Assembly (NCBI GenBank): GCA_002718455.1
Contig: PBER01000007.1
Coordinates: 62,206 to 100,609 of the forward strand
DNA length: 38,404 nt
Reading direction: 5' to 3'
Source of the DNA: Chloroflexota bacterium
Lineage (GTDB): Bacteria > Chloroflexota > Dehalococcoidia > Lucifugimonadales > Lucifugimonadaceae
Shown here: piece by piece, positions 15,881 through 38,404 of the stretch
Layout: every line of letters begins with the position of its first letter
Position numbering within the stretch: the stretch's first letter is position 1
The notes under the pieces: generated by a model
Databases searched by the model: none
Told to the model about the DNA's origin: nothing
Seen by the model: only the letters and a program-made list of their open reading frames with translations
Translations under genes and position numbers: made by a program

Positions 15881-16935
15881 TACTTTATGGTTAACATTTT
15901 GGTGGGATTAGTATCTACCATTTTGGTTATATTTTCTTTATCAATTTTTCTAGCTATCATCCAAGGGATTATATGGTTAATAATGTGATCAAATCCGTGG
16001 CCACCAAATTTTTTGAGTCTATGTTTGGTACAGATATCATGTGCTAGTAGTATTTTATCTTCAAATCCTTTATCTATTAAAAATTCGATCATATTTATCC
16101 TCTCATGATCGCCTGGCATATATGTTTCAGGTGCAAGTGGATAGAAAGGGCTATCATGTCCCCATAGATCTAAATTAAGATAGACACCAGTATCTGCAGT
16201 TTCTTTTAGTATAGTATTGTCAAAAATTGTTCTATCAATATGTCCCATTACTACATTATCTAAGTCAGCTCCTAATTCATCTATATATTTTATTATTTCC
16301 AAAGGGGCAATTTGATTCCTTCCGGGATGAATCAATAATGGTAATCCTGTTTCCTTATGAGCTAAAACAGAAGCTTCCATTGAAAGTTTTTCATTTTTGG
16401 TCCATGGCCAAGAACAGCCTACTTCACCTATGATTCCAGATTTAACTGTTGAATTATCTACACCAATTTTTATATCGTTAATAATATTTTCATACAATCC
16501 TTCTATACCATCTTTTGTATATCCCTTATTTTGTGCTAATTCAACGTAATACCCTGTACCCATAACTATATTTAAACCTGTTTTTTTACTTATGCTTTGT
16601 AATTTTATTGGATTTCTGCCGAGTCCTATATTTGTAACATCAACAATAGTTTTTCCTCCAGCATTTTTAAAGTAATTTAACTCATTGATAGCTAAGTTTT
16701 CATCATCATAAACCAAATTATCTTTTGAAGATGCCCAATTGAATCTTATCCATCCCATATTTTCTAATGAAAGCTTTTTATTCATCATGGATTTTTCTTT
16801 AGGATTAATAGGTTCTGTTAGTATAGCTTCAAAATTTATCAATATATGGTCATGTGTAGAAGTAATACCGATTTCTAGAGGATCAATTGTGCCCAAAACA
16901 GTCATTACTTTTCCAAAATTTTCATTATTTGACAT
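15880..16935 (-). CDS. Phosphotriesterase-family metal-dependent hydrolase (Glu-bridged type)
   Basis: Amidohydrolase-superfamily TIM barrel of the phosphotriesterase/PHP group, whose natural members are mostly lactonases or esterases. Seen: HDH (His28, His30) after the typical VLGTIDPLEIG, the bridging position GIIGEVGCSW with Glu where true phosphotriesterases have carboxylated Lys, LLIHPGR, DNVVMGHIDR, and LLAHDICTK supplying the last Asp. The length of 351 aa is normal. It lies in an operon with an enolase-superfamily enzyme and a hydroxyacid dehydrogenase, which suits hydrolysis of a sugar or hydroxyacid lactone. The substrate is not determinable. Confidence 0.88.
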   Translation of the reverse strand: MSNNENFGKVMTVLGTIDPLEIGITSTHDHILINFEAILTEPINPKEKSMMNKKLSLENMGWIRFNWASSKDNLVYDDENLAINELNYFKNAGGKTIVDVTNIGLGRNPIKLQSISKKTGLNIVMGTGYYVELAQNKGYTKDGIEGLYENIINDIKIGVDNSTVKSGIIGEVGCSWPWTKNEKLSMEASVLAHKETGLPLLIHPGRNQIAPLEIIKYIDELGADLDNVVMGHIDRTIFDNTILKETADTGVYLNLDLWGHDSPFYPLAPETYMPGDHERINMIEFLIDKGFEDKILLAHDICTKHRLKKFGGHGFDHIINHIIPWMIARKIDKENITKMVDTNPTKMLTIK

Positions 16936-16936
16936 G

Positions 16937-17635
16937 TTAAAATTCAGGCTCCATACTCACATCTAATATTCCAATAGGCTTTCTATCGTCACAGTACCAT
17001 AAAGTATTGTCTTTGATGGTCATTCCATGTACTTGTACAGGATGAGGAACTCTGAAACTATCATAAACCCTAGAATCAGAAAGTCTTATTCTAGTTACAA
17101 TTCCCATTGCTGTATCTGCTACCCAAATGTATCCTTCTTCTTTTGACCAAGCAATTCCATGTACTCTATATCCAGGAACTTTTGTACGACTTATTTCTTT
17201 CCAATTTTCTGGATCCATGACGTGTATATATTGTGAAGGAGGAGATGCGACATAAAGTAAACCTTCTTTCCATTCCAATCCGTGATCTCCTGTATTTTGA
17301 TAATTTTCAGAATCGTGTTCTCTTGTAGCATTCATTCCTTGTCCAGGAGATTCAAATTTCTCTATAGTCTCACCCGATTTTGAATCAATTTTGTAAATCT
17401 TACAATTATATGTAGATGCTATCCAAATATTTCCCTCGTCATCTAATGTTATACCTGAAGATTTAACTGTTTCTGTTTCAAAACTTTTTATAGTCTTACC
17501 ATTTGTCCAATCTAAGAGATAAACATAATTATTTCCTTGATCAATCACCCATAGACCTTCTTCGGATGCCTGTAAACCATTAGGTTTAGGGCCAGGACAA
17601 TTGAAAAGTTGAACCGGATCTGCAATTTTTGTCAT
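16937..17635 (-). CDS. NHL/SMP-30-like beta-propeller protein
   Basis: Repeated strand-turn units with the alternating pattern GLWVIDQGNNYVYLLDWTNG, GNIWIASTYNCKIYKIDS, GLLYVASPPSQYIHVMD, GYIWVADTAMGIVTRI and NTLWYCDD. This is typical of NHL or SMP-30/gluconolactonase-type beta-propellers. No signal peptide, so cytoplasmic. At 232 aa it is short for a six-bladed propeller but adequate for five. A clear GGAG precedes the ATG. Between the dehydratase-like and hydrolase genes, a lactonase role is plausible, but the metal ligands of SMP-30 cannot be assigned with confidence. Confidence 0.75.
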   Translation of the reverse strand: MTKIADPVQLFNCPGPKPNGLQASEEGLWVIDQGNNYVYLLDWTNGKTIKSFETETVKSSGITLDDEGNIWIASTYNCKIYKIDSKSGETIEKFESPGQGMNATREHDSENYQNTGDHGLEWKEGLLYVASPPSQYIHVMDPENWKEISRTKVPGYRVHGIAWSKEEGYIWVADTAMGIVTRIRLSDSRVYDSFRVPHPVQVHGMTIKDNTLWYCDDRKPIGILDVSMEPEF

Positions 17636-17659
17636 ATTATTCTCCTATATTTATTTTCT

Positions 17660-18874
17660 TTATAAAACTATAACTTTTTTCTCTGTATCTTTATTTGATA
17701 GAAATTCATCAGACAGATTAACACCACATCCAAAATCATCACTTGCATAAGCATATCCGTTTTCAATTTTTGGTACTTTACTAACAATTTTTTGATACCA
17801 TGTATTATTAAATGCCCTCACAGTTTCCTGAATTATTGTATTAGGAACATTTAATGAGAGCTGAATCGAGAAAGCTAGAGTTACAGGACCAACACAGTCA
17901 TGAGTTGCTATGGGTATATTATATGATTCAGCCATTGTACTAATCTTTTTAGCTTCAGAAACTCCTCCTACCCAAGATATGTCAAACATACATATTGTTG
18001 CTGCCCTTTTTTCGAACATCTCTCTAAACTGCCACCTACTAGCTAAGGTTTCAGATGCAGTTGTAGGAATGAAAGTTGATTTTTTAAATTGATATAACGT
18101 ATCAAAATTATCCATAGGAATAGGGTCTTCTATCCAGAATGGATTATATGGTTCAACTGATTTTGCGATTCTTATTGCAGATGGTAGATTCCAAAATGAA
18201 TGTAATTCAAGCATAACTTCCATTTTGCTTTTAAGTTTTTCTCGAATTAATCTAAATGGTTCAGATCCTTCTTCTAATTCAACGAGATCAATCATATTTC
18301 CATCATTATTTGGAACGAACTGATCAAAAGGCCAAATTTTCATTGCTGTAAAACCATCCTCTAGTAAGCTTTCAGCTAATGCAATGGGATCATTCATAAA
18401 AGCATACTGATCTTCATAGGGTTGATCTTTCTGGTAGTCTATATCTCCTGGTAGTTTAGAACCAGCGCGGTTAACTCCATAAGAATATCCTGCACAAGTA
18501 TTATAAACTTTTATTTTTTCTCTTGATAATCCTCCTAATAGATCATACAAAGGGACTTTTAGTCTTTTAGCTTTTAGATCCCAGAGAGCCATATCTATTG
18601 CAGATAATCCTCTCATTTCACCAGAATTACCTATTTTTATATGTGCTCCGACTTTAGATAATTTTTCCCAATGCAAATCTATCTTAGAAGGATCTTTGCC
18701 TAAAAGATAATTAGAACCCTCTCCCATAATGAACGCTTCTACCGTAGTTGGATCGTATGAAGTTTCTCCAATACCTTCAAGTCCATCATTTGTTTTGATC
18801 AAAACCCAAATAATTTTTGGATAACTTGGGTTTCGTATAGTTGTTATTTGTTCAATTAATAGATTCCTTGGCAA
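17660..18874 (-). CDS. Enolase-superfamily enzyme (mandelate racemase/dehydratase type)
   Basis: Two-domain enzyme that abstracts the proton alpha to a carboxylate, typically a sugar-acid dehydratase or racemase. Seen: N-terminal capping domain (LIKTNDGLEGIGETSYD; SAIDMALWDLKAK; LYDLLGG), then the barrel with MKIWPFD, metal-ligand strands VMLELHSFW, FWIEDPIP and TASETL, DISWVGGVSEAKKI, and IATHDC with a likely catalytic His-Asp dyad. The first ligand position is Glu in ELH, where many members have Asp. The length of 404 aa is normal. Start codon TTG, 9 nt after the dehydrogenase gene. A paralog is encoded at 29277. Confidence 0.9.
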   Translation of the reverse strand: MPRNLLIEQITTIRNPSYPKIIWVLIKTNDGLEGIGETSYDPTTVEAFIMGEGSNYLLGKDPSKIDLHWEKLSKVGAHIKIGNSGEMRGLSAIDMALWDLKAKRLKVPLYDLLGGLSREKIKVYNTCAGYSYGVNRAGSKLPGDIDYQKDQPYEDQYAFMNDPIALAESLLEDGFTAMKIWPFDQFVPNNDGNMIDLVELEEGSEPFRLIREKLKSKMEVMLELHSFWNLPSAIRIAKSVEPYNPFWIEDPIPMDNFDTLYQFKKSTFIPTTASETLASRWQFREMFEKRAATICMFDISWVGGVSEAKKISTMAESYNIPIATHDCVGPVTLAFSIQLSLNVPNTIIQETVRAFNNTWYQKIVSKVPKIENGYAYASDDFGCGVNLSDEFLSNKDTEKKVIVL

Positions 18875-18883
18875 AATTTTTCC

Positions 18884-19906
18884 CTACAGAACAGGTTTAT
18901 TTGCAGGCATTGCTTTCAGCATTTCCAATTGAGATGTAACAGAAGGATTTTGAAGAGCAGTTGGTCTTTCTCCTCTTAATACTGCTGCAACCTGTTGAGA
19001 AGCTCTTCTTCGTGATAACCAGGCCGAACGAGTAGATTGACCTGCAACGTGTGGAGCAACTATTACATTGGGCATACTGAACAATGGATTGTTAGGATCT
19101 GCTGGCTCTTGTTCAAAGACATCTAAACCAGCTCCACGAAACTTTTTATTGTTTAATGCATCAATCATTTCTTTTTCAACTACTACAGCTCCTCTACAAA
19201 CATTAATGAAATAAGCACTTGATTTCATAAGGTCAAATTGTTCTTTTCCAATCATATGGTGGGTTTCAGGATTAAGAGGTACAATTGTGACTACATAATC
19301 AGACTTTTTAAAAATATCGTTTAAATTCCATACTTGTTCTACTCCATATTCTTTGATTAACCATGGAGGACAATAAGGATCATATACCAAAGTTTTCATT
19401 CTCCACGCTCCCAATTTTCTAGCAATTTGTCTTCCTATATTTCCAAATCCAATAATACCAAGAGTTTGTTCATCTATTGGGTCTATTGGACTAAATTCTG
19501 AGGCGTTCCATTTACCTCCATTCCTTAATTGCAGAGTATATTGAACTGTTTGTCTATTAAGTGCTAAAGCAAAAGTAACAGCTTGATTAGAGACTTCTTC
19601 TGCACACATACCTGCGCCATTTGTTATCATAATTCCATGTTCCGTAGCTGCTGCTGCATCAATATGATTAAACCCATGTGAATATACTGCTAATACCTTA
19701 CATTTTTTAGTGGACTTGATGAATTGTTCACTACCCCAACCTGCTCGATTCATAATTGCATCTGCATCTTTAACAACCTCCATTGCTTCTCCTTCAGAAG
19801 CTGGATTTGCTTTTACGAATTCTATATCTAGATCTGCCATTTCAGCTCTTTCATATTCTAATTTGTCATCTTCAGGCCCTAGAAATACTACCTTATATTT
19901 AGCCAT
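18884..19906 (-). CDS. NAD-dependent D-2-hydroxyacid dehydrogenase
   Basis: Oxidoreductase of the D-isomer-specific 2-hydroxyacid dehydrogenase family, interconverting 2-hydroxy and 2-oxo acids. Seen: Rossmann motif LGIIGFGNIGRQIARKLG, the substrate-binding Arg in NVCRGAVV, catalytic Glu in LDVFEQEPAD, and catalytic His in IVAPHVAGQS. The domain order (catalytic halves around a central NAD domain) and the length of 340 aa are typical. It heads a five-gene minus-strand unit with an enolase-superfamily and a phosphotriesterase-like enzyme. It could reduce or oxidise a keto/hydroxy-acid intermediate there. GGAT lies seven bases before the ATG. Confidence 0.92.
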   Translation of the reverse strand: MAKYKVVFLGPEDDKLEYERAEMADLDIEFVKANPASEGEAMEVVKDADAIMNRAGWGSEQFIKSTKKCKVLAVYSHGFNHIDAAAATEHGIMITNGAGMCAEEVSNQAVTFALALNRQTVQYTLQLRNGGKWNASEFSPIDPIDEQTLGIIGFGNIGRQIARKLGAWRMKTLVYDPYCPPWLIKEYGVEQVWNLNDIFKKSDYVVTIVPLNPETHHMIGKEQFDLMKSSAYFINVCRGAVVVEKEMIDALNNKKFRGAGLDVFEQEPADPNNPLFSMPNVIVAPHVAGQSTRSAWLSRRRASQQVAAVLRGERPTALQNPSVTSQLEMLKAMPANKPVL

Positions 19907-20064
19907 TTATAATCCTTTCGTATTCATGTTCTGTTTTCATATAATTTATTCTAATTGCATATATCGTATAAAATTATTTTTAAAAATATATTCCATTTAG
20001 TTATAAAAAATAACATTTTCTACTTGTTTTTATATAAATTAAAATAAAAAGAAAAAAAATACCT
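19907..20064. promoter_or_regulatory. Divergent intergenic region (hydroxyacid dehydrogenase / M42 peptidase)
   Basis: A 158-nt A/T-rich gap between two divergent catabolic units, the most likely place for promoters and any operator controlling both. TATA-rich tracts occur throughout (for example ATATAA and TATAAA), so single boxes cannot be chosen. No strong inverted repeat was noticed. Confidence 0.3.
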
Positions 20065-21183
20065 ATGTCAAATCAACTATTAGATACTTTTAGGGAACTA
20101 TCGAACCTCCCTACAACTTCGTTTTATGAACAAAAAATTTTGGAATACATAAAAACTAAACTTGATTCCTATAAAATAGAATTTCACCAAGATTCCTGGG
20201 GAAATATTTTTGCTGAAGTTAATGGTAAAACTCCAAATGAAATAGTATTTATATCTCATACGGATCATCCGGGATTTGAAATCATATCTAAACATAAAAA
20301 GAACATTTATTTAGCAAAAGCTCTAGGAGGGTTACCAAAAAATTGTGTAACCAATCAAACGAATGTAAAAATAATTTCAAATAAATCTGATTTATATAAA
20401 GGAAAAATTATAAATTTTTATTCTAAAGAAAATAAAAAACCAAAAATCCCAAAGAATTATAGATGGATGACTTCAGAGTTTGTTTTAATTGAATCTGAAT
20501 CTGAAAATATTAAATTACCAAGTTTTGCCGTATTTGATTTACCAGAAACTAAATATTTTGGAGAAAGAATTGTAACTCCTGTGGCCGACGATTTGGCTGG
20601 ATGTGCTCTAATTATTGAAACATTGAATAAATTAAATAAAAGTTCTAATGAATATTCTTTTAAGGCTATTTTCTCTAGAGCTGAAGAAGTAGGACTTATA
20701 GGGGCAAGATTAATTGCAGCTAATGAATTGATCAGCAAAAATTCTATAATTATTTCTATTGAAACTAGTAGTGAATTACCTGGAGCAAATTTCGGTAAAG
20801 GTCCAATAATAAGGACTGGAGATCGGCTAACAACTTTTGACAATAAAGCTGAACTTGTACTATTACAATCTGTGAAAGAAATATTACGAAGAGATGTAAA
20901 TTTTGCTTATCAAAGACAACTCATGAGTGAAGGTGGATGTGAAGCATCCGCTTTTGCAGTTTTTGGATATTCAGTTACAGGATTAGCATTACCTTTGCGT
21001 AACTGGCATAATGGTAATGAACAAGGTGATGTTGAACCTGAAGAGATAAGTTTGTTAGATTATGAGAATGCATATAAAATTATGACAAACTTAGGAAAAT
21101 TAGATATTGTAAAAATAAAAGATTATTTTAAAAATCTTATGATGATTCCTGAAGATGCCAAAAAATTAATTAATGAGGAGTAA
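20065..21183 (+). CDS. M42-type metallopeptidase / aminopeptidase-like protein
   Basis: Dinuclear-zinc exopeptidase fold of the M42/M20/M28 clan. Seen: SHTDHPGF (His65, Asp67), VADDLAG (Asp175/176), the general-base and ligand pair AEEVGL (Glu207, Glu208), IISIETSS in the place of the fourth ligand strand, and NWHNG (His315) near the C-terminus. The apical-domain insertion after residue 85 fits M42. Families of this type include aminopeptidases and deacylases, so the substrate is open. It is followed after 2 nt by a ThDP-dependent enzyme whose ribosome-binding site GAGGAG lies in this gene's end. Confidence 0.85.
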   Translation: MSNQLLDTFRELSNLPTTSFYEQKILEYIKTKLDSYKIEFHQDSWGNIFAEVNGKTPNEIVFISHTDHPGFEIISKHKKNIYLAKALGGLPKNCVTNQTNVKIISNKSDLYKGKIINFYSKENKKPKIPKNYRWMTSEFVLIESESENIKLPSFAVFDLPETKYFGERIVTPVADDLAGCALIIETLNKLNKSSNEYSFKAIFSRAEEVGLIGARLIAANELISKNSIIISIETSSELPGANFGKGPIIRTGDRLTTFDNKAELVLLQSVKEILRRDVNFAYQRQLMSEGGCEASAFAVFGYSVTGLALPLRNWHNGNEQGDVEPEEISLLDYENAYKIMTNLGKLDIVKIKDYFKNLMMIPEDAKKLINEE

Positions 21184-21185
21184 TT

Positions 21186-22820
21186 ATGCCTGAGATTGAT
21201 GGATCTTATTTGGTTGCAAAAACGCTTAAAGATGAAGGTGCAGAGTGTTTATTTTATCTAATGGGAGGACCAAATTATGAAATTATAAATAATTCTGAAG
21301 ATTTTGGAATAAAGACGTATGATTTTCGACACGAACAGGCTGCTGCAATGTCAGCACACGCATATACTAGAGTAACAGGCAAACCAGGTGTAACAACAGC
21401 TGCTTCAGGTCCAGGAACCTTAAATTTATTGACTGGACAATATAATGCTTTCGTTGATTGTGCTCCTATGATCACTTTGGGTGGTGCAGGACCATTGAAA
21501 GATTTTTACAGAGGTGGATTCCAAGAAATAGATCAATTGTCCATTTTTGAAAAGGTATCTAAAGCCACCTTTAGACCTACCTCCGCTAAACAATACCCTC
21601 AAATAGTTTCTCATGCTTTCAGAATTGCAACATCCGGAAGGCCTGGACCTGTTTATATAGATTGTAATGAAGATGTCTTATATGAAAAAGTTAGCGAAAA
21701 AAATTTAAACCAGCCCACTAGATCTTCTGAAAAATCATCTCCTATTGGTGATCCTGAATTAATTTCAAAATCTATAAATTTATTAAAAAAAGCTAATGCT
21801 CCAATTATACTTGCAGGAGGAGGCACTTTTTGGTCTGACTCATCAAGTGAATTGAAACAGTTAGTAGATAATTCTGGAATTCCATTTTATACGACCCCAA
21901 TGACTAGAGGAATAGTATCTGATGATCATCCTTTTTCCTATCCTGCAGCCAGATCTAGTGCTTTTAGGGAAACAGATTTTGTCTTAGTTTTAGGAACAAG
22001 ATTTAATTGGATTATGACTTATGGCAATAGAATAAATCCGGACGCAAAAATCATACAGGTAGACATTTTTGAGGAAGAAATTGCACATAATAGAGAAGTG
22101 ACATTAGGAATTGTAGGGGATTGCAAAAATGTAATAAATCAATTAAATGAAGAATTATTAAAACAAAATATAAAGTCAAATCAATGGGAAACATGGAGAA
22201 ATAATTTGTCAAAACTTGAAAAATCTAGACTAGAAAAAGTAAAGCCTTTAGAAGAATCTTCCCAATCTCCGATTCATCCCTTAAGACTATGTAAAGAATT
22301 AAGAGAAGTCATGGATCCTTCGTCAATAATTAGTATAGATGGAAATGAAATATTACATTATGGTAGACAAAGTATTCCTTGTTACAAACCGGGACATTCA
22401 ATCAACTCGGGCCCAACCGGATGTATGGGGGTAGGATTGCCTTACGCAATCGGAGCTAAAATAGCAAAACCTAATAATCAGGTATTTTCTTTACATGGCG
22501 ACGGATCATTAGGAATGAATATTCAAGATTTTGATACCGCTGTAAGACACAATCTACCAATTGTAATAGTGGTATCTAACAATGAAGGATGGACAGCAAG
22601 AGTTGAAGGAATTAGAAAACCGGGAAGAGAGTTAGGTTTTACTAGGTTTGATTTGATTGCAGAATCGATGGGAGGTTACGGTGAATTAGTTGAAAAACCC
22701 GAAGAAATCAAACCAGCAATTGAAAGAGCGATAAATTCAAACCTTCCTTCTATAGTAAATGTTCACACAGATCCTACTGCTAGAGCTATTTCCAAATTTG
22801 TTGGATCAAAAATGGAGTAA
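21186..22820 (+). CDS. Thiamine-diphosphate-dependent enzyme (acetolactate synthase-like)
   Basis: Three-domain ThDP enzyme of the acetohydroxyacid synthase / 2-oxoacid decarboxylase group. Seen: the cofactor-activating Glu50 in FRHEQAAAMSAHAYTR, AASGPGTLN, a central domain from about 190 to 330, and the ThDP/Mg motif starting HGDGSLGM (GDG at 438-440) and ending NNEGW. The length of 544 aa is normal. Its pairing with a peptidase-like hydrolase and not ilvN (regulatory subunit) argues against a biosynthetic acetolactate synthase. Decarboxylation or carboligation of a 2-oxo acid from nearby catabolic genes is a reasonable guess. Confidence 0.88.
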   Translation: MPEIDGSYLVAKTLKDEGAECLFYLMGGPNYEIINNSEDFGIKTYDFRHEQAAAMSAHAYTRVTGKPGVTTAASGPGTLNLLTGQYNAFVDCAPMITLGGAGPLKDFYRGGFQEIDQLSIFEKVSKATFRPTSAKQYPQIVSHAFRIATSGRPGPVYIDCNEDVLYEKVSEKNLNQPTRSSEKSSPIGDPELISKSINLLKKANAPIILAGGGTFWSDSSSELKQLVDNSGIPFYTTPMTRGIVSDDHPFSYPAARSSAFRETDFVLVLGTRFNWIMTYGNRINPDAKIIQVDIFEEEIAHNREVTLGIVGDCKNVINQLNEELLKQNIKSNQWETWRNNLSKLEKSRLEKVKPLEESSQSPIHPLRLCKELREVMDPSSIISIDGNEILHYGRQSIPCYKPGHSINSGPTGCMGVGLPYAIGAKIAKPNNQVFSLHGDGSLGMNIQDFDTAVRHNLPIVIVVSNNEGWTARVEGIRKPGRELGFTRFDLIAESMGGYGELVEKPEEIKPAIERAINSNLPSIVNVHTDPTARAISKFVGSKME

Positions 22821-26853: not shown

Positions 26854-27651
26854 TTAATACGAATCTTCAACATGATTATTTGATTTTTTAATTTTTTTAG
26901 TCCACAAGTTTTCAAGTGAATATTTTGGTCTCCATCCTAAAATATCGAAAGTTTTAGAGCTATTAAATTTATTGTGGGGAGGCATAGGACTTACAAAAAA
27001 AGTTTCGGAATTTGACTGTAATTTTGATTTGTCTATTTCAACTGCACATCTTACAGCCTCTCCACAGTCAATCCAAGACGTAGTAAAAGGAACCATATCA
27101 TTGTGTAAAACTGCTTTTTCTTCATTTGGAGTGGTAAGATCGTAGTGATGTCTCATATTGTAATAGAGAAGAGTTATGAGGTTTATTCCAAAATAATCTG
27201 CATATCTTTCTGCTATTTCTTGACCCAAAAACTTACTTATTGCATAAAGCCTAGTCCCTGGTTGAGGTGGCATTTCTGGATTTAAATTAAAATCCCATTC
27301 CTCATATGATTGTCCTAACATTTGGAAGTGCGGGCCGGTATTTATAACCCTTTTAATATTATGAATTTTTGCAGCATTCATCATGCTGTAATTTCCTTTT
27401 GTAGAAACATCAAATGCGAGTTTTCTATCATGTCTTAATACAGAAAGATTGATTATACAATCCATGCCTTCAGCAGCATTTATCACACCATTTATATCGT
27501 CAACGCTTAATTTTAAGAAGTCACCTTGATATTTTTTCGGAGGCTCATTAATATCTGTTAGTAATAATTGATGTTTGTTTTTCAATGCTTTAACAACCCA
27601 TGGCCCCAGCATTCCAGTTCCTCCCAATATAAGAATTTTCATTTTACTCAA
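26854..27651 (-). CDS. NAD-dependent epimerase/dehydratase (extended SDR)
   Basis: Extended SDR of the sugar-nucleotide epimerase type. Seen: GGTGMLGPWV cofactor motif near residue 10, DCIINLSVLRHDRK, the active-site Tyr and Lys in LYAISKFLGQEIAERY, and WIDCGEAVRCAVEI toward the C-terminus. At 265 aa it is shorter than classic epimerases, with a reduced substrate domain. The tracked start is TTG at 27651; ATG at 27642 is preceded by GGAG at a better spacing. It overlaps the end of the upstream degenerate SDR by 4 nt (or adjoins it if the later start is used). Confidence 0.87.
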   Translation of the reverse strand: MSKMKILILGGTGMLGPWVVKALKNKHQLLLTDINEPPKKYQGDFLKLSVDDINGVINAAEGMDCIINLSVLRHDRKLAFDVSTKGNYSMMNAAKIHNIKRVINTGPHFQMLGQSYEEWDFNLNPEMPPQPGTRLYAISKFLGQEIAERYADYFGINLITLLYYNMRHHYDLTTPNEEKAVLHNDMVPFTTSWIDCGEAVRCAVEIDKSKLQSNSETFFVSPMPPHNKFNSSKTFDILGWRPKYSLENLWTKKIKKSNNHVEDSY

Positions 27652-28334
27652 ACTCCTATCAAATTATCAATTTTATTAGTTAAAAATTTTTGACCTTCAA
27701 ATGTATCTTGTAAGTGCAAATTAATCCAGTTAGGGCCTTTCTTTCTCGCAGAATTAAAAGGATTTTTTGTCTGTTTTAACTCTTCTGAACTAAAATCTAA
27801 ATCTACCATTAAATTAATGCTTTTCTTAAATTTTTCTTCAGATAATCTTGTATCACTATTTTCTCTCAGATCTCCTAGCCTTAGATTTATTACTTCAAAT
27901 ACTTGATCTCTAGCGAATTCTTTACATACTTTTTCTGATAAATTTGCACATAAAAGTTCTGGTTGATCCAAAGGAAATTTAGTTTCCCAGTTTTCACTAA
28001 CAGTAAGATTGGCTTCATAATCTTTGTACAATTCCAAAGTAGAAATAGATATAACTTTTTCTACATTTTTTTTCCCTGCAGCAAAAAGCAAATCGTACGT
28101 TATTCTAGTGTGATAATCAATAAGCTCCATTTCATCTTTTGCTAAAAACCCTTTAAACCCTATATGAACATAAACATCTATTTTTTCAAAAAGTTTTTCC
28201 AGTTCCTTTGAATTTGAATAAATTAAATCTTTGTCATTAATAAAGTTTATATTGTGTGAAACTAGACAATTCGAAAGTATTTTGGCAATTGATGAACCAT
28301 TTGAAGAAATTAGTATATTTTTTTTCTTTTCCAT
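27648..28334 (-). CDS. Degenerate extended-SDR paralog, probably without catalytic activity
   Basis: A 228-aa protein with the general layout of an NAD-dependent epimerase: beta-strand start ILISSNGSSIAK, DVYVHIGFKGF, KVISISTLELYKD, and a helix CANLSEKVCKEFARD where the YxxxK site is expected. The Gly-rich cofactor loop is replaced by SSNGSS, and the catalytic Tyr is missing (CANLSEK). It is therefore likely an inactive or repurposed homolog. It lies immediately upstream of the intact epimerase and overlaps it, suggesting a partner or regulatory role, such as a heterodimer; that is inference. Confidence 0.7.
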   Translation of the reverse strand: MEKKKNILISSNGSSIAKILSNCLVSHNINFINDKDLIYSNSKELEKLFEKIDVYVHIGFKGFLAKDEMELIDYHTRITYDLLFAAGKKNVEKVISISTLELYKDYEANLTVSENWETKFPLDQPELLCANLSEKVCKEFARDQVFEVINLRLGDLRENSDTRLSEEKFKKSINLMVDLDFSSEELKQTKNPFNSARKKGPNWINLHLQDTFEGQKFLTNKIDNLIGV

Positions 28335-28408
28335 TATGAATTTTTCTTATTTAGTTGTTTAATAGTAACTGTAACAACAAATCTTTCAAATATTCAAAGG
28401 AAAGTTTA
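28335..28408. promoter_or_regulatory. Short divergent gap before the RraA-like gene
   Basis: A 74-nt A/T-rich gap between divergent genes. AAAGGAAAG just before the ATG at 28409 is a good ribosome-binding site and decides the start of the RraA-like gene; the ORF track begins 54 nt too early. Promoters for both units should lie here or in the 5' end of the opposite gene. Confidence 0.3.
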
Positions 28409-29164
28409 ATGAATAAAAGTGAATTTGAAAAAATTAAAAATATAGAAAGACCACAAAAAGAATTGATTGAAAAATTAAAAAAAGTAGGAACAGCCACTGC
28501 TTCAGGTGAACTAAATAAATTGGGAATAAAAGATTGTTTCATACAAGGCCCAGTATCATGGACTCCTGGTAAAGTAATAGCAGGTCCAGCAATAACCTTG
28601 CAATTTTTGCCTATTAGAGAAGATGTGTTTCAAGATAATCAAGAGATGGATCCTGAACTTCAATACCATAGACATGCGTTGTACTTAGCCAAAGAAGGAG
28701 ATGTAGTGGTAGTAGACGCAAGAGGAAATTTACGAAGTGGAGTTTTTGGAGAAATGATGCTTACTTATTTTCAAGGAAAAGGAGGTGCAGGTATAGTGGT
28801 TGATGGAGCTATTAGAGATTTTACTAATGCTAGAGATCTAGATTTAGGGATGTGGCTTCGTGGTGTTACTCCTAATTATCATACACAGACTTCAATATTC
28901 CCTAATGCTGTAAATATCCCAATTGCTTGTGGAGGGGTACTTGTAAACCCTGGAGATATTATTATTGCGGATGATGATGGTGCGGTAGTTGTTCCAAAGA
29001 CCTTGGCCGAGCAATTAGCAGAAAATGCTTCAGGTCATGCAGAATGGGAGATCTTCGCTCGAAAGAAATTATCAGAAGGAGGAGAATTGAAAGATTTTTA
29101 TCCTAGAATAGCTTGGTCAAATGAAACTGAAAAAGAGTATGAAACATGGATAAATAACAAATGA
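28409..29164 (+). CDS. RraA-family aldolase-like protein
   Basis: Member of the RraA/HMG-CHA aldolase family, in which many members are class II pyruvate aldolases or oxaloacetate decarboxylases and RraA itself inhibits RNase E. Seen: GTATASGELNKLGIKDCFIQG, PGKVIAGPAITLQ, DVVVVDARGNLRSGVFGEMM, AGIVVDGAIRDF with the substrate Arg and metal Asp, and DDDGAVVVP. The catalytic residues of the aldolase branch are present, so enzymatic function is favoured over RNase inhibition. Start taken at ATG 28409 (251 aa), supported by AAAGGAAAG. It heads a catabolic unit that includes a dehydratase. Confidence 0.87.
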   Translation: MNKSEFEKIKNIERPQKELIEKLKKVGTATASGELNKLGIKDCFIQGPVSWTPGKVIAGPAITLQFLPIREDVFQDNQEMDPELQYHRHALYLAKEGDVVVVDARGNLRSGVFGEMMLTYFQGKGGAGIVVDGAIRDFTNARDLDLGMWLRGVTPNYHTQTSIFPNAVNIPIACGGVLVNPGDIIIADDDGAVVVPKTLAEQLAENASGHAEWEIFARKKLSEGGELKDFYPRIAWSNETEKEYETWINNK

Positions 29165-29186
29165 TGATTGTTGTCTTTCCTCGGTG

Positions 29187-29192
29187 TATAAT
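29187..29192 (+). promoter_or_regulatory. Candidate -10 box upstream of the enolase-superfamily gene
   Basis: TATAAT occurs 84 nt before the next ATG in a 112-nt gap that is less AT-rich around this site than other gaps. No convincing -35 hexamer lies 16-18 nt upstream. It could give a second transcript starting with the dehydratase gene, or be chance in an AT-rich genome. Confidence 0.25.
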
Positions 29193-29276
29193 CTCCGGAT
29201 CATAACACAATGTTTAATTCTCTGATAACATAAACCAGTAATAAAAATCTAATTAAAAGTATCTTGAAGGTAAAAT

Positions 29277-30425
29277 ATGAAAATCACCAAAATTACTCCA
29301 TATGCTGCAGATTATGAACAAACATCCAAAAGCAAATTGGGTAGAAAATGGGTATTTTTAAAAATGGAAACAGATGAAGGTATTCATGGTTGGGGAGAAG
29401 TAGGTTCTTCTGTAGCAGTAAGTGAAAATTTTATGGCTACTGCTATCAAAGAAGTATCTGAAAATCTTATAGGTGAAAACCCAATGGATACTGATCGGTT
29501 ATGGAATAAAATTTTTCGTCTTTTTTCTTATATGGGGTCTAGAGGATTTACAACTTCATTAACTGCTGGTTTTGATATAGCTTTGTGGGATATAAAAGGG
29601 AAAGTAAGTGGACTACCGATATATGATTTACTTGGAGGAAGATATAGAGATCCAGTAAGGCTTTACTGTAATGCTTGGTTTCCAGATTGTTCGACCCCTG
29701 AAGATTATGCAAAGGCTGCGAAAGCTAATTTAGTTGAAAACGGACACAGTGCATGTAAACTCGATCCATTTCTAGAAATGACACAATTTCATACTATGTA
29801 TCAAGATGGCTTTATATCACAAAAAGGAGAACAATTAGGATACGATATTGTTGCAGCAGTAAGAGAAGTGGTCGGTCCCGCTTTTGAAATTTTGATAGAT
29901 GCTCATGGACATTACAATGTACCTAATGCTATTAGGCTATCTAATAATCTTTTTGAACAATCTAATATAACTTGGTTTGAAGAACCAGTTCCACCAGAAG
30001 GAATAAACGCTTTAAAACAAGTAAAGGAAAATACGAATGCTCCAATTTGTGTTGGAGAAAGACTTTATACTAGAGCAGACTTTATTCCAATCCTTGAAAA
30101 TAATCTTGCAGATTATATTATGCCTGATACTATCTGGACGGGTGGAATCTCAGAAATAAAGAAAATTGCTACAATGGCTGAGGCATATTATATTCCTATA
30201 ACACCTCACGTTATTCCGGGTGGACCAATAGAATTGATTTCTGCCGCACATGTAGTAAGTTCTGTCCCGAATTTTTATAGATTGGAACACTCCCATGTTT
30301 TTATTCCTGAACATAATAATTACTTAGAGGAACCATATTTAATCAAAGACGGACATATTCATTTAAATGATAAACCAGGACTTGGATTTGAATTAGATGA
30401 AACTAAACTTGATAAATTAATATAA
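29277..30425 (+). CDS. Enolase-superfamily sugar-acid dehydratase (galactonate dehydratase-like)
   Basis: Mandelate-racemase-subgroup enzyme with the layout of D-galactonate/D-mannonate-type dehydratases. Seen: capping domain (LKMETDEGIHGWGEVG), FDIALWDIKGK, LYDLLGG-type loop, HSACKLDPF, metal ligands in ILIDAHGHYN (Asp and the DgoD-type His), WFEEPVPPE and CVGERLY, then DTIWTGGISEIKKIA and the catalytic His in ITPHVIPGGP. All expected active-site residues are present. Such enzymes dehydrate a sugar acid to a 2-keto-3-deoxy acid, a substrate for the neighbouring aldolase families. 382 aa, normal. Paralog of the protein at 17660. Confidence 0.92.
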   Translation: MKITKITPYAADYEQTSKSKLGRKWVFLKMETDEGIHGWGEVGSSVAVSENFMATAIKEVSENLIGENPMDTDRLWNKIFRLFSYMGSRGFTTSLTAGFDIALWDIKGKVSGLPIYDLLGGRYRDPVRLYCNAWFPDCSTPEDYAKAAKANLVENGHSACKLDPFLEMTQFHTMYQDGFISQKGEQLGYDIVAAVREVVGPAFEILIDAHGHYNVPNAIRLSNNLFEQSNITWFEEPVPPEGINALKQVKENTNAPICVGERLYTRADFIPILENNLADYIMPDTIWTGGISEIKKIATMAEAYYIPITPHVIPGGPIELISAAHVVSSVPNFYRLEHSHVFIPEHNNYLEEPYLIKDGHIHLNDKPGLGFELDETKLDKLI

Positions 30426-30434
30426 AAGTAGGGA

Positions 30435-31115
30435 ATGAGAATGAAAATAATTTTGTCGGGAATAGAATATGTTGGAACAACTACTATTGCAAATTTAATG
30501 AAAGAATGGAAAGTTAAAACTACTGGAACTCCGTTTTATGATAATAATCTACATGATCATATGAAAATTCCACATACATCAGGACATCCGGATGATACAA
30601 CTTCAGAAGAACAACAACAGATTTTAAACTTGTCACCAAAGCTAAAAGAAATGTATCACAGATATCATATGTATTATCATTTGCATCATTATTTTCAAAG
30701 AGATGACTTAACTGTGGGTTTTCACATCGAGGAAGCTGTATTAGCTAGAAGATATTATGGTTATGGCTTAGATGGTGAAACTTTCGATAGAGAAAATGTA
30801 GTTTTCGATAGAATTGAAAACAGGATTAAGCAAATCACATCTGATCCGATTATAACTGTTCATATGAAAGCAGAAACGTCAATTATTGAAAAAAGAATGG
30901 ATTCATTAAAAAGAAACCCTGAACATTCTAATAGCCCCCTAAAAAAAGAAGATATCCCTGCAGTTATGGCTGAATATAAACATTTTGTAGATAAAAGTAA
31001 TATTGGTCCTAAGGTTGAAGTTGATACAACAGTAGATACTCCTGAAGAAACATTAAATAAAGTGGTAGAGTTAATCAAGCCACATCTAAGCGAAGCAGAT
31101 TTAAATAATCATTAA
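30435..31115 (+). CDS. P-loop kinase-like protein lacking the Walker A lysine
   Basis: N-terminus MKIILSGIEYVGTTTIANLM looks like a nucleotide or sugar kinase P-loop, but where GxxxxGK(S/T) is expected it reads GIEYVGTTT (residues 9-17): the essential Lys is Thr15 (codon ACA). The rest is compatible with a P-loop kinase fold: a helical lid rich in His and Tyr (MYHRYHMYYHLHHYFQRD), DRIENRIKQI, IITVHMKAETSIIEKRMDSL (a common kinase LID-like pattern) and a C-terminal helix. The family is unfamiliar to me. Two ATGs (30435, 30441) are possible starts. It is tightly packed between the dehydratase and the PLP-enzyme genes. Confidence 0.75.
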   Translation: MRMKIILSGIEYVGTTTIANLMKEWKVKTTGTPFYDNNLHDHMKIPHTSGHPDDTTSEEQQQILNLSPKLKEMYHRYHMYYHLHHYFQRDDLTVGFHIEEAVLARRYYGYGLDGETFDRENVVFDRIENRIKQITSDPIITVHMKAETSIIEKRMDSLKRNPEHSNSPLKKEDIPAVMAEYKHFVDKSNIGPKVEVDTTVDTPEETLNKVVELIKPHLSEADLNNH

Positions 31116-31133
31116 TATTGAAAGGCTAAAAAA

Positions 31134-32231
31134 ATGTTCACAAATTACAAAATCAATAATATCGAAAACTTTGAAACACCTGAGCACCTGATTTTTGAGT
31201 CAAAAGTCAATCACAACATTTCAACATTAATCTCTATGGTTCAAGATGTTAATAGATTAGTGCCTCATGCAAAGACGCATAAGTCTAAAGAGATGTTGAA
31301 TCATTTAATTGATCGAGGAATTACTAGACATAAAACTTCAACTATAAATGAACTAGAAATTTTAGGAGAATGTGAACCTCAAGAGTTGATTTTATCTTAT
31401 CCAATTGCCTCAAAAATCAAAGCCCAAAGACTTCAAAAGATAATAAATAAATTTTCCAAAACAAATTATTCTTCAATAGTTTCATCCATTTATCACGTTG
31501 AATTACTGAATGATTTAGAAGGAATCCACGGAGTATATATCGATTTAGATACGGGGATGCATAGAACAGGGATTTCTATAAATGAACTAGATGATTTACT
31601 TGATTTTATTATGAGTAAAAGTAATTTAGATTTGCGAGGAATTCATGCTTATGATGGGCATATGCATGCAGTTAATAATGACAAAGAAAGATCAAATCTT
31701 GCGGCGCAAACATTGAGAGATATAAGACAATTACAAGAAAAGATCTATTCAGCTTATAAATTCGAAACCTACGATATTATAGTTGGAGGATCTTGGTCAT
31801 TTCATTTTTATCTTGACCAAAAAGATATTAAACTTTCACCAGGAACGTGGATCTATTGGGATGCAACAAATGCGGAACAAAAAGAATTAAATTTTCAAAT
31901 TGCTGGAGTAGTGTTAGGTCAAGTAGTTGATAATGATGAACTCGAAGGAACTGCAACTATAGATATAGGTGCGAAAGCCATTTCTTGTGATCCTCCCACA
32001 GAAAAAAGACTAAAATTAATAGATAAACCCAATGCAATTCTGGTTCACCAAAATGAAGAGCACGGTGTAATTAAATTGAATGGTGAAACCTTAAATATTG
32101 GTGATTATGTTTTGGCAGAACCAGGGCATGCGTGTACAGTAACTCCAAAATATCCTCATGCAATAAAGATAGATGCAAATGGGGATATATCAGGTAAAAT
32201 AAATTCAGATGCAAGAGACAGAAAAATCTAA
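31134..32231 (+). CDS. PLP-dependent D-serine dehydratase / D-threonine aldolase-like enzyme
   Basis: Fold-type III (alanine racemase-like) PLP protein. Seen: PLP lysine Lys47 in LVPHAKTHKS, VYIDLDTGMHRTGI, GIHAYDGHMH, VGGSWSFHFYL, and a metal site PGHACTV near residue 330. The His-x-Cys pair matches eukaryotic-type D-serine dehydratase, while D-threonine aldolases usually have His-x-Asp. This suggests beta-elimination or aldol cleavage of a D-3-hydroxy amino acid. The barrel and C-terminal beta domain are both complete (365 aa). AAAGG lies upstream of the ATG. Its 3' end overlaps the next gene by 23 nt. Confidence 0.87.
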   Translation: MFTNYKINNIENFETPEHLIFESKVNHNISTLISMVQDVNRLVPHAKTHKSKEMLNHLIDRGITRHKTSTINELEILGECEPQELILSYPIASKIKAQRLQKIINKFSKTNYSSIVSSIYHVELLNDLEGIHGVYIDLDTGMHRTGISINELDDLLDFIMSKSNLDLRGIHAYDGHMHAVNNDKERSNLAAQTLRDIRQLQEKIYSAYKFETYDIIVGGSWSFHFYLDQKDIKLSPGTWIYWDATNAEQKELNFQIAGVVLGQVVDNDELEGTATIDIGAKAISCDPPTEKRLKLIDKPNAILVHQNEEHGVIKLNGETLNIGDYVLAEPGHACTVTPKYPHAIKIDANGDISGKINSDARDRKI

Positions 32232-33159
32232 ATTTATCAATTCAGTATTAGGTCCTATAGATATAAATACTTTAGGATTTACGCTTTCACATGAACATGT
32301 ATTAACAGCATCAGCTGGATTAGGAATTTCTTACCCTAAATTAATTGATAAAAATGATTTAATTTCTCGAGCCACTAAAGAATTTATTAAGCTGAAATCA
32401 TCAGGGATAGATTCAATTATCGATGTGACTACTATGGATCTTGGTAGAGATGTTGAAATATTAAGGGAAGTGTCTATAAATTCTCATGTCAATATAATTT
32501 GTGCTACTGGAACTTGGAGAGATATCCCTCGATCTTTTTGGTATTTACGGCCATCCCAAATCGCAGAATTATATATCGATGAAATAAATAAAGGTATTGA
32601 TCAAACGCAAATAAAAGCAGGAATAATTAAGGTAGCAAATGATTCTGAAGGAATAACTGAAGAAGGTGAAATTATTTTGAAAGCAGCTGCAATAACTTGT
32701 AAGCAAACTGGAGTTCCAATATCAACTCATTCGTATGCTAGAAATAAAGTTGGGCTTGAACAAATACATATTTTCAATTCTGAAAATGTAGATATAAATA
32801 AAGTTTATATAGGTCATAGTAATGATTCAACGGATGTTGATTATTTGGAAGATATTATACAACATGGTGCCTGGCTTGGATTAGATAGATTACCGGGAAG
32901 AAACCCTGATTGGAAGGAGAGAGCAGATGTTACTTTTCAACTAATTAACAGGGGCTTAGAAGATAAAATAATGCTTGGTCATGACTGGAATTATAAATCC
33001 TTAATTTCAAATTTAAGTGAGCAAGAGAGACTGTCCGCAAATCCTGAAGGTTTTTTATTTATAAAAAACCAATTTATACCTCTCTTGCAATCAATGGGAG
33101 TGAGTGAAAAATCAATAAAAAAAATTATGATAGATAACCCTAGGAGTTTTTTTTCCTAA
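32209..33159 (+). CDS. Phosphotriesterase-family metal-dependent hydrolase (Lys-bridged type)
   Basis: Second phosphotriesterase-like TIM barrel in the window. Seen: SVLGPIDINTLGFTLSHEH with His28 and His30, the bridging position AGIIKVAND with Lys (carboxylated in characterised phosphotriesterases and lactonases), STHSYA, VYIGHSND, and IMLGHDWNY with the final Asp. The Lys separates it from the Glu-type paralog at 15880. Length 316 aa, slightly short but complete. It overlaps the PLP-enzyme gene by 23 nt; no later ATG, GTG or TTG gives a sensible start. Probably an esterase or lactonase in the same pathway. Confidence 0.88.
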   Translation: MQETEKSKFINSVLGPIDINTLGFTLSHEHVLTASAGLGISYPKLIDKNDLISRATKEFIKLKSSGIDSIIDVTTMDLGRDVEILREVSINSHVNIICATGTWRDIPRSFWYLRPSQIAELYIDEINKGIDQTQIKAGIIKVANDSEGITEEGEIILKAAAITCKQTGVPISTHSYARNKVGLEQIHIFNSENVDINKVYIGHSNDSTDVDYLEDIIQHGAWLGLDRLPGRNPDWKERADVTFQLINRGLEDKIMLGHDWNYKSLISNLSEQERLSANPEGFLFIKNQFIPLLQSMGVSEKSIKKIMIDNPRSFFS

Positions 33160-33164
33160 TTGGT

Positions 33165-34244
33165 TCATTCCCATTTGAAAGTCTTTATTCCAATAATAAA
33201 ACAAATTATTATCCATAGGATTATAAGCCCTAATTCTGGTAACAAATCTAGTGTGTTTGTTCCATAAAGTGAAGATTCACGCATTCCTGTAACTAGAGGG
33301 GACAATGGTAGGTTTTGTCCAATGATTTTAATCCAAGAAGGTAAAACATCATTTTCAAAAAATACTCCTGATAAAAACATCATTGGAAAAGTAATTAAAT
33401 TTGCAATAGGAGCAGCGTAATCTTCATTGGGTGATGCTCCAGATATTGCTAGCCCTATCATCAAAAAAAGAATTGATCCAAGTAAAGAGAATATTAGAAT
33501 ATTAACCCAGGCTAAAATACTACCTTGCCCTATATTGATTTTTAGTACTAGTATCCCAATAATAAATAATAAAATAGTTTGAATTGTTATAATTACTAAT
33601 CTGCTAGCTAATTGACCTATTAAAAAATGAGCTGAAGATATTGGAGTAGCTTGTAAGCGTCTTAATACACCCTGAGTTTTATAGCTTATCAAGGTAAATA
33701 CTACTCCTAAAATCCCACTTTGCATTATGGCTAATGAGACTATTCCTGGAACTAAAAATCCTTTGTACCCTTGATTGCTATTATTTTTTATTTTTGTAGA
33801 GAGATTTTGAGTATTATTGTTTGTTTTTTTCGAATCAATTATTTCTATAACCGAGTTTATAGTATCTTGAAATGCATGGGCAATAATTTCTTTTGATTCT
33901 TCAAATTCAAGGGTTATCTTTTCTTTATTGTTGTGATTATACTTATCATGTATAACTAATACACTGTCAATTTTCCCTTCTAAAACTTTTTTATCTAACT
34001 TTTCTCTAGTATTTATTTCAATTTCAATATATTTTTTTTCTGACACTGCTTTGATTAATTCTTTGGAATATTGATTTTTTGCATTATCAATTACTCCTAA
34101 TTTAGAAGGTGAAAATTCTCCAAATCCATAGAATCCTAACCCAATCATCAATACAACAGGAAAAAACAGAGACCAAAATAATGATTGTGATCGTCTAAAA
34201 TACATTTTCATAGTTGCTATCGCAATTGCAAAAGAGATTTTCAT
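33165..34244 (-). CDS. ABC-2-type transporter permease
   Basis: Integral membrane half of an ABC exporter. Seen: an N-terminal helix (SLFWSLFFPVVLMIGLGFYGF), an extracytoplasmic domain (about residues 45-150), and a C-terminal block of five or six helices, including IVSLAIMQSGILGVVFTLISYKTQGVLRRLQATPIS, the typical ABC-2 coupling region. The length of 359 aa is normal for this family, which exports drugs, lipids or polysaccharides. Its ATG overlaps the stop of the ATPase gene (ATGA), so the two form one exporter. It stops 5 nt from the convergent phosphotriesterase gene. Confidence 0.9.
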   Translation of the reverse strand: MKISFAIAIATMKMYFRRSQSLFWSLFFPVVLMIGLGFYGFGEFSPSKLGVIDNAKNQYSKELIKAVSEKKYIEIEINTREKLDKKVLEGKIDSVLVIHDKYNHNNKEKITLEFEESKEIIAHAFQDTINSVIEIIDSKKTNNNTQNLSTKIKNNSNQGYKGFLVPGIVSLAIMQSGILGVVFTLISYKTQGVLRRLQATPISSAHFLIGQLASRLVIITIQTILLFIIGILVLKINIGQGSILAWVNILIFSLLGSILFLMIGLAISGASPNEDYAAPIANLITFPMMFLSGVFFENDVLPSWIKIIGQNLPLSPLVTGMRESSLYGTNTLDLLPELGLIILWIIICFIIGIKTFKWE

Positions 34245-36949: not shown

Positions 36950-38404
36950 TTGTCAAAACATCGGACAACAATTATAGACCCTCTTAGTAATAAGCAGCTT
37001 TTTCTTGATGATTATGCGATTGAAAACCTTGATGGATTAGTTAAGGTTTTGCATCAACCTAAGAAATGTGGAACGATTATAGCCCCAGACCGATCAAAAG
37101 AACAAACTCTGGTACAGAGTTCTTCTTCTCCAAATTGGAACCCTGATATTAATCGATGGGAATGGTGGTATGCTGGATTTTATGATGAAGCACCTGTTCA
37201 AGGGCCAGTTGATCCAGTATGGGGAGAGTATCACTATACCACTTCTATTGATGGAATAAACTGGGAATATCCAACACTTGGTCTTTATGAATGGAGAGGA
37301 TCTTGGGAAAATAATCTTGCATATCACTCCAGACTTGACTTCATAAGAAGAAGAGGTGAAAAAAATCCACCAGGTATTGAAGAAAGACGTTTTCATCACA
37401 TTGTAAGAGATCAAAATGATCCAGATGAAAACCGTCGGTACAAAGCATTATTCAGTAATTCTGACAACCAAAGAAGATACCCAGCTTTCTCTCCTGATGG
37501 TTTCAAATGGTTGTTTCCATATGTTGATGGGATTTATAGTGAAGACACTTCTCAAATGATTTTCGACAACATACAAAATCAATATGTCGCTACAGTAAAA
37601 AAAAGAACTGAATGGGGCCGATCTTTATGGCTTTCAACAAGTAAGGACTTTTTAGAATGGACAGATCCTCAATTAGTCCTCCATACAGATGAGATTGACC
37701 AGATAAACCGAAAAGAAAGAATAAAAAAAGCAGTTGAAGATCCTGATTATCTTTCTCCTCCTACAATAGATTCAGAAGCAGACTATATTGCACAGCTTTA
37801 TATGATGCCTTTGATGACTTATGAGGGGATATATGTAGGTTTTCCATTATTGTTCAATCCAGCTGGTCCCGACTTACCACAAATGAATCACTGTGGTCTA
37901 AATCAAACTGAATTGGCCATGTCTCGAGACTTATATCAATGGAAAAGAGTAGCTGATCGGTCAATATTTTTGGGAATTGATCCTTGGGATGGAAAAAATT
38001 ACGATACATGTCAAGTAGCAGTTTGTGGATCACCCATAGTAAGAAATAATGAAATATGGATTTATTACGAAGGAGCAAGATTTAGAGGTGTTAAAGAAAG
38101 TTATCCTGAAAAATTTCGTCCATATTTCAGAGATATGGGAGCATTAGAATTGGCTAAACTCAGACTAGATGGCTTTGTTTCACTGACTGCAAAAAATAAA
38201 GGCGAATTTCTAACTAAGCCATTTAATGTAACTAATGAAACACTAAAAATTAATGTGAACTCATCAAAAGGGCAATTAGATGTAGAGATTATAGATGCAA
38301 ATACGTTAGAACCATTACCTAACCTTTCTTTCTCAAATTGTGATCCTATAAGATCTGACAGTATAGATACTTTGGTTACTTGGAAAGGATTATCACTTTT
38401 AAAC
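36950..38404 (+). CDS. GH32/43-like beta-propeller glycoside-hydrolase family protein (cut by window edge)
   Basis: This open frame of 485 codons reaches the window edge and is absent from the ORF track. The frame is closed upstream by TAA at 36923; the only start is TTG at 36950, preceded by AGGAAA. Seen: NKQLFLDDYAIENLDGLVKVLHQPKK at the N-terminus, then propeller-like blades rich in Trp and Tyr (RWEWWYAGFYDE, YHYTTSIDGINWEYP, NRRYKALFSN, SLWLSTSKDFLEWTDP, IWIYYEGARFRG). The same opening pattern occurs in GH32/GH43-like proteins of Planctomycetes and similar bacteria. No signal peptide, so probably cytoplasmic. The visible C-terminus enters a beta-sandwich-like region. Specific substrate and catalytic acids are not assigned. 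Confidence 0.82.
   Translation, partial: MSKHRTTIIDPLSNKQLFLDDYAIENLDGLVKVLHQPKKCGTIIAPDRSKEQTLVQSSSSPNWNPDINRWEWWYAGFYDEAPVQGPVDPVWGEYHYTTSIDGINWEYPTLGLYEWRGSWENNLAYHSRLDFIRRRGEKNPPGIEERRFHHIVRDQNDPDENRRYKALFSNSDNQRRYPAFSPDGFKWLFPYVDGIYSEDTSQMIFDNIQNQYVATVKKRTEWGRSLWLSTSKDFLEWTDPQLVLHTDEIDQINRKERIKKAVEDPDYLSPPTIDSEADYIAQLYMMPLMTYEGIYVGFPLLFNPAGPDLPQMNHCGLNQTELAMSRDLYQWKRVADRSIFLGIDPWDGKNYDTCQVAVCGSPIVRNNEIWIYYEGARFRGVKESYPEKFRPYFRDMGALELAKLRLDGFVSLTAKNKGEFLTKPFNVTNETLKINVNSSKGQLDVEIIDANTLEPLPNLSFSNCDPIRSDSIDTLVTWKGLSLLN

Follow-up and report, generated by a model that had tools for sequence, protein, structure and literature searches.

The window analysed here is a 38,404-nucleotide stretch of contig PBER01000007.1 from a SAR202-type marine bacterium (1.3 Mb draft genome, 83% complete; labelled G000). 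Between positions 28409 and 33159 it carries five genes in a row, encoding an RraA-like protein, a mandelate-racemase-family protein (MR), a nucleotide-kinase-fold protein (KIN), a pyridoxal 5'-phosphate (PLP) enzyme (DSD) and a phosphotriesterase-like hydrolase (PTE). A reading of the sequence alone, without database searches, had placed the five open reading frames (ORFs) at these positions and proposed a single five-gene pathway. The ORFs lie as described, and family searches back four of the five assignments, KIN being the exception.

28409..29164, + strand: RraA-like protein (251 aa; NCBIfam PRK08245 subfamily)
29277..30425, + strand: MR, mandelate-racemase-family sugar-acid dehydratase, galactonate dehydratase-like (382 aa)
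30435..31115, + strand: KIN, nucleotide-kinase-fold protein of an uncurated family
31134..32231, + strand: DSD, fold-type III PLP enzyme (Pfam domains, PHAKTHK, HAC metal site)
32209..33159, + strand: PTE-like hydrolase of the amidohydrolase superfamily (PF02126; metal ligands aligned to 6gbj)

All five ORFs are intact, co-directional and closely packed, with spacings of 112, 9 and 18 bp from RraA through MR and KIN to DSD, and a 23 bp overlap of DSD and PTE. An in-frame TTG at 28355 exists upstream of RraA, the ATG at 28409 being the better fit for its start. An assembly artefact was excluded, as a second metagenome-assembled genome, that of the close congener G135 (draft, 92% complete), has the identical gene order with the five proteins 90-97% identical (loci L015/L020). 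Comparison of G000 with G135 (dS approximately 0.2) gave dN/dS values of 0.10 for RraA, 0.06 for MR, 0.26 for KIN, 0.09 for DSD and 0.12 for PTE, indicating purifying selection on all five genes, as on the neighbouring genes. Intact ORFs under such selection are therefore no chance run. A scan for promoters and terminators returned no more sites than were found in shuffled sequences. The five genes are possibly co-transcribed in both species.

Protein families of the five genes

The RraA-like protein was matched by PF03737 (1e-33) and by NF006093 (264 bits; cut-off 208). Class II pyruvate aldolases of the HMG/CHA type, which have the RraA fold, reportedly carry the motif D-X20-R-D. In its place, the window protein and its subfamily as a whole have E-X20-R-D, with the Arg-Asp pair retained. 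On sequence, the protein is probably a class II pyruvate aldolase or a 2-oxo acid decarboxylase. MR is matched by MR_MLE_C (5e-59) and by PDB 2qq6 (6e-71), and in the alignment retains the D-x-H motif (DAH), the E-E metal ligands and the His-Asp dyad. It scores 258 bits with the galactonate dehydratase equivalog PRK14017, below the cut-off of 311, and is best described as a superfamily member. The G000 draft genome contains 33 MR-family matches. Large MR expansions are a known feature of SAR202 group I (PMC6946804; PMC10444878), and a sugar-acid dehydratase in this unit is therefore ordinary.

RraA proteins of the same subfamily (57-64% identical to the window protein) are encoded after MR in Bosea and Microvirga; in Martelella and Agrobacterium, their genes lie near those for mannonate dehydratase and a sugar transporter. 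In a Roseomonas operon, an RraA of 30% identity is found together with an MR 46% identical to that of the window. Because the pairing recurs in these distant bacteria, the combination of RraA with a sugar-acid dehydratase is a genuine module.

DSD matches Ala_racemase_N (PF01168, 4e-13) and D-ser_dehydrat (PF14031, 2e-11), placing it in the D-serine dehydratase/D-threonine aldolase superfamily (fold type III). The PLP lysine lies in PHAKTHK, of the superfamily form PHxKTxK, and the metal-binding His-x-Cys pair in GHAC (H332/C334). Both motifs are kept in the aligned Chloroflexota relatives, which are 40-96% identical, one row having an X at the Cys position; the His-x-Cys site that the sequence-only reading likened to D-serine dehydratase is thus present and conserved. 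Profile matches comprise BhcC, D-threonine aldolase, D-serine dehydratase and D-threo-3-hydroxyaspartate dehydratase, DSD being roughly as close to aldolases as to dehydratases both by profile and by fold (AlphaFold2 model, Foldseek). Foldseek did not separate the dehydratases from the aldolases for DSD, and the score against the BhcC equivalog NF045642 (52 bits) is far below its cut-off of 690. Overall similarity does not decide the matter. In D-threonine aldolase, the metal is bound by His347 and Asp349, with His193 as the base, while D-serine dehydratase uses His and Cys and does not have that base (PMC4401734). The His193 column is occupied by Ala in DSD (numbering checked against the PDB), and HxD rather than HxC occurs in BhcC and in a second DSD paralogue of G000. 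On account of the HxC metal pair and the missing His193 equivalent, DSD looks like a member of the dehydratase branch (D-serine or D-threo-3-hydroxyaspartate type). That DSD is instead a D-threonine or D-3-hydroxyaspartate aldolase appears improbable: BhcC and the D-threonine aldolases are its best matches by profile and fold, but the active-site residues, with Cys as metal ligand in place of Asp and no base His193, speak against it (PMC4401734).

PTE belongs to the PF02126 family (5e-69; PDB 6gbj, 4e-63). Its binuclear metal ligands, comprising the HxH motif (HEH), the bridging Lys, two His and an Asp, are intact when aligned to 6gbj, and the sequence points to a probable lactonase. No close homologue was found in the genus; the best relatives, 56% identical, are from other families.

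No Pfam or NCBIfam model matched KIN, and no significant sequence relative was found in the PDB (best E 0.02). The AlphaFold2 model (pLDDT, the predicted local distance difference test score, 91.6) resembles 3kb2 and thymidylate kinases in Foldseek searches (best E 4e-5), so that the modelled fold is of the nucleoside monophosphate/thymidylate kinase type; kinase activity is not to be assumed. In place of the Walker A motif GxxxxGK[ST], KIN has GxxYVGTTT, with the lysine replaced by threonine. Nearly all aligned relatives read GCEYxGTTT, the Walker A Lys being kept (GKTT) only in L041. The description 'kinase-like' thus stands for the fold, which matches nucleotide kinases, but not for the Walker A lysine. 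In other taxonomic families, KIN adjoins proS, ferrochelatase, RimK or asparaginase genes. A role as the sugar-acid kinase of a pathway was rejected on account of the missing Walker A lysine, the unrelated neighbours elsewhere and the want of a significant sequence relative in the PDB. The family (L003-L059) has invariant His40, His42, Arg76 and Arg154, numbers as many as 14 copies within a single genome, and forms tandem triplets in L047, L049 and L050. A KIN-PTE neighbourhood in genome G143 (L126) was set aside, with 12 KIN paralogues present there and a PTE only 45% identical.

A variable site within the genus

Searches with the KIN, DSD and PTE proteins were made across the order (250 genomes each), and the stronger matches among those listed were compared. 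Among these, the full RraA-MR-KIN-DSD-PTE order was found only in G000 and G135. The site was then compared across the genus between conserved flanks, with epimerase-like genes on the left and genes for an ABC permease, an ABC ATPase, an HpcH aldolase and an amidohydrolase on the right. The genes immediately next to the unit are the following:

27648..28334, - strand: SDRa, NAD-dependent epimerase-like gene, left flank, divergent; kept in 8/8 genus loci
33165..34244, - strand: ABCp, ABC permease, right flank, convergent; kept in 8/8 genus loci and bounding the variable segment

Between these flanks, the site (27600-33200 and the syntenic loci L021-L024, L123 and L124) has five different contents in eight genomes. 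G000 and G135 hold all five genes, three congeners (G128, G130, G132) hold RraA-MR-KIN, G131 holds RraA-MR, G134 holds MR alone, and G133 has an opposite-strand short-chain dehydrogenase/reductase gene followed by KIN. In G129, neither the ABC permease nor KIN was matched, and a close MR was likewise absent. A tblastn search of the congeners' site loci revealed no DSD, no PTE and no overlooked RraA or KIN.

Each of the other seven congeners has one close DSD (61-64% identity) located away from the site and adjoining a flavin monooxygenase-like flavoprotein gene. Mostly, this neighbourhood also contains a zinc alcohol dehydrogenase, a glycerophosphodiester phosphodiesterase, another MR and a transaldolase-like gene. 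G000 and G135 retain the flavoprotein-hydrolase pair without DSD. The divergence of DSD from its congeners equals that of the flanking genes (ABCp, for example, is 62-66% identical), and the simplest reading of these sequences is that DSD is an old gene of the genus that changed place; the unrooted tree does not fix the direction. The same DSD neighbourhood is common to SAR202 cluster bacterium OSU_BB06 (L017) and the congener G128 (L088), from which we infer that the genus belongs to the SAR202 clade. In G133, the flavoprotein gene beside DSD (L086, 9434-11046) is split into two ORFs; it is intact in the congeners.

The order-wide searches and the comparison of syntenic sites lead us to reject a conserved five-gene unit. 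Of the single pathway proposed earlier, the enzyme types are right and the genes are under selection and apparently co-transcribed in two species, but the full order is confined to these two, congeners holding one, two or three of the genes. It had been said that an order unique to this contig, with no conserved co-occurrence, would refute the proposal. Our result comes close to that, the order being present in two species and the RraA-MR pair of distant bacteria forming the exception.

Elsewhere in the window, a second cluster of predicted sugar-acid type (15880-22820) would encode a PTE-like hydrolase and an SMP-30-like beta-propeller protein, together with an MR, a D-2-hydroxyacid dehydrogenase and a thiamine-diphosphate enzyme. 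An ORF at 3901-4449 reads like ribosomal protein L19; at its N-terminal end a 42 bp unit is tandemly repeated (4.1 copies, 97% match), which gives encoded repeats like EEPKSTEAKEEAPA. A long ORF that leaves the window end (36950-38404) has no Pfam or NCBIfam match.

Probable assembly of the operon and its likely function

Taking gene content, motifs, site comparison and selection together, we consider it probable that the unit is a lineage-specific catabolic operon accreted at one variable site, rather than a conserved five-gene pathway. The RraA-MR pair would form its core. Judging from the families and their recurring context, MR would form a 2-keto-3-deoxy acid by dehydration of an aldonic acid, and RraA would cleave or decarboxylate a 2-oxo acid to pyruvate and a small product. 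KIN would be an independent gene that in some congeners lies downstream of this core by chance. DSD, which all members of the genus possess but which is located elsewhere in the other seven, would have joined together with a PTE-type hydrolase in the G000/G135 lineage. The most likely reaction of DSD is a metal-assisted beta-elimination on a D-3-hydroxy-amino acid yielding a 2-oxo acid and ammonia, with D-serine, D-threonine or a 2-amino-2-deoxy-aldonate as candidate substrates, while PTE most likely opens a lactone. The MR, RraA and DSD steps would be linked by converging on 2-oxo acids of the pyruvate type and, possibly, by co-transcription.

Several points weigh against accretion. The close packing and the DSD/PTE overlap are kept in both species, allowing real co-function there. 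An RraA gene lies within about 2 kb of two of the five closest plasmid relatives of DSD (adjacent in Cupriavidus, 2 kb away in Bradyrhizobium); these RraA proteins belong to other subfamilies and are 31-33% identical, and the two contexts are the best remaining hint of a functional link between DSD and RraA. Furthermore, the genomes are drafts (G000 83% and G135 92% complete) and the genus tree is unrooted, leaving gain versus loss at the site undecided.

As a special case of accretion, DSD and PTE might serve a D-amino-acid salvage unrelated to RraA-MR, with DSD a D-serine/D-threonine dehydratase that merely shares a transcript. We regard this as a serious contender, falling somewhat short of an even chance. 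Bacteroidota relatives of DSD are found in operons (including L018) of the form GntP transporter-RidA-DSD-membrane dipeptidase, as in Parabacteroides, or RidA-DSD-dipeptidase, as in Hymenobacter, and Proteobacterial relatives occur with glutamate cyclase and RidA (glutamate cyclase-DSD-RidA in Paraburkholderia). G000 itself has one M19 dipeptidase and one RidA, both away from the unit, and the HxC type is that of D-serine dehydratase. However, those relatives are only 28-34% identical to DSD, and PTE is no known D-amino-acid enzyme. An unlikely alternative is one amino-sugar-acid pathway. An aminoaldonolactone would be opened by PTE, and DSD would remove the amino group of the 2-amino-2-deoxy-aldonate to leave a 2-keto-3-deoxy acid, as OngC does in the oxidative use of chitin. 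MR would arrive at that product from the acid lacking the amino group, RraA would cleave it to release pyruvate, and KIN would be accessory. The DSD and MR products would then converge, the operon is tight and under selection in two species, RraA is close to DSD relatives in Cupriavidus and Bradyrhizobium, and most congeners have DSD in the vicinity of MR, transaldolase-like and GH32 genes. Against this, DSD is apart from RraA and PTE in seven congeners, RraA genes are absent from the stretches retrieved around all 18 of the other Chloroflexota DSD loci, and the unit has neither a deacetylase nor a 2-keto-3-deoxygluconate (KDG) kinase. Slightly more doubtful still is a single SAR202-lineage route for an amino-sugar acid or its lactone, with ring opening by PTE, ammonia removal by DSD in the manner of OngC, MR handling the non-amino partner and cleavage of the shared 2-keto-3-deoxy acid by RraA. 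If true, the amino sugar acids and the plain sugar acids of marine organic matter would be taken in by a single operon.

If accretion is correct, a small marine genome is seen building a catabolic operon one gene after another at the same site, and its congeners preserve several of the stages. The biochemical question is narrowed to two enzymes: a putative D-hydroxy-amino-acid dehydratase, maybe acting on amino-sugar acids, and an RraA-type aldolase recurring beside sugar-acid dehydratases.

Comparison with known systems

DSD shares its fold, PLP-lysine motif and HxC site with D-serine dehydratase and D-threo-3-hydroxyaspartate dehydratase (3ANU, 3WQC), but is only ~19% identical to them in structural alignment, and its fold is equally close to the HxD aldolases. 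The non-phosphorylative sugar-acid catabolism of SAR202 group I (PMC10444878, PMC6946804) resembles the unit in its many MR dehydratases and its dehydratase plus aldolase logic, and an HpcH/HpaI aldolase and a fuconolactonase-like gene lie close to the unit; in contrast, the seven paralogue sets proposed there do not include RraA, DSD, KIN or PTE. The Alphaproteobacterial RraA-MR and RraA-mannonate dehydratase operons (Roseomonas, Bosea, Microvirga, Martelella) share a same-subfamily RraA or same-group MR with its partner, usually accompanied by ABC transporter genes. They differ in having no KIN, DSD or PTE, while their transporter and regulator genes are absent from the unit.

In the case of the oxidative chitin (ong) pathway, OngC is a fold-type III PLP, D-serine-deaminase-like enzyme feeding KDG (PMC9537276). 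A D-serine-dehydratase-like enzyme in sugar-acid metabolism has therefore already been described, and the earlier statement that such an enzyme is rare next to sugar-acid enzymes was too strong. Going by the description of OngC, DSD would be of the same enzyme class; Vibrio plasmid homologues (L149, L150) were rejected as a stand-in for OngC, their surroundings not being ong-like as far as examined. The ong pathway has a D-aminoacylase-like deacetylase, RidA, KDG kinase and a symporter, whereas the unit has MR, RraA and PTE. None of the ong partners (OngB-type deacetylase, RidA, KDG kinase) was found among the five genes or directly beside them, the sole RidA match of the G000 genome being on another contig. 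By analogy, the OngC precedent nonetheless suggests, as a hypothesis, a way for DSD, MR and RraA to converge on one intermediate.

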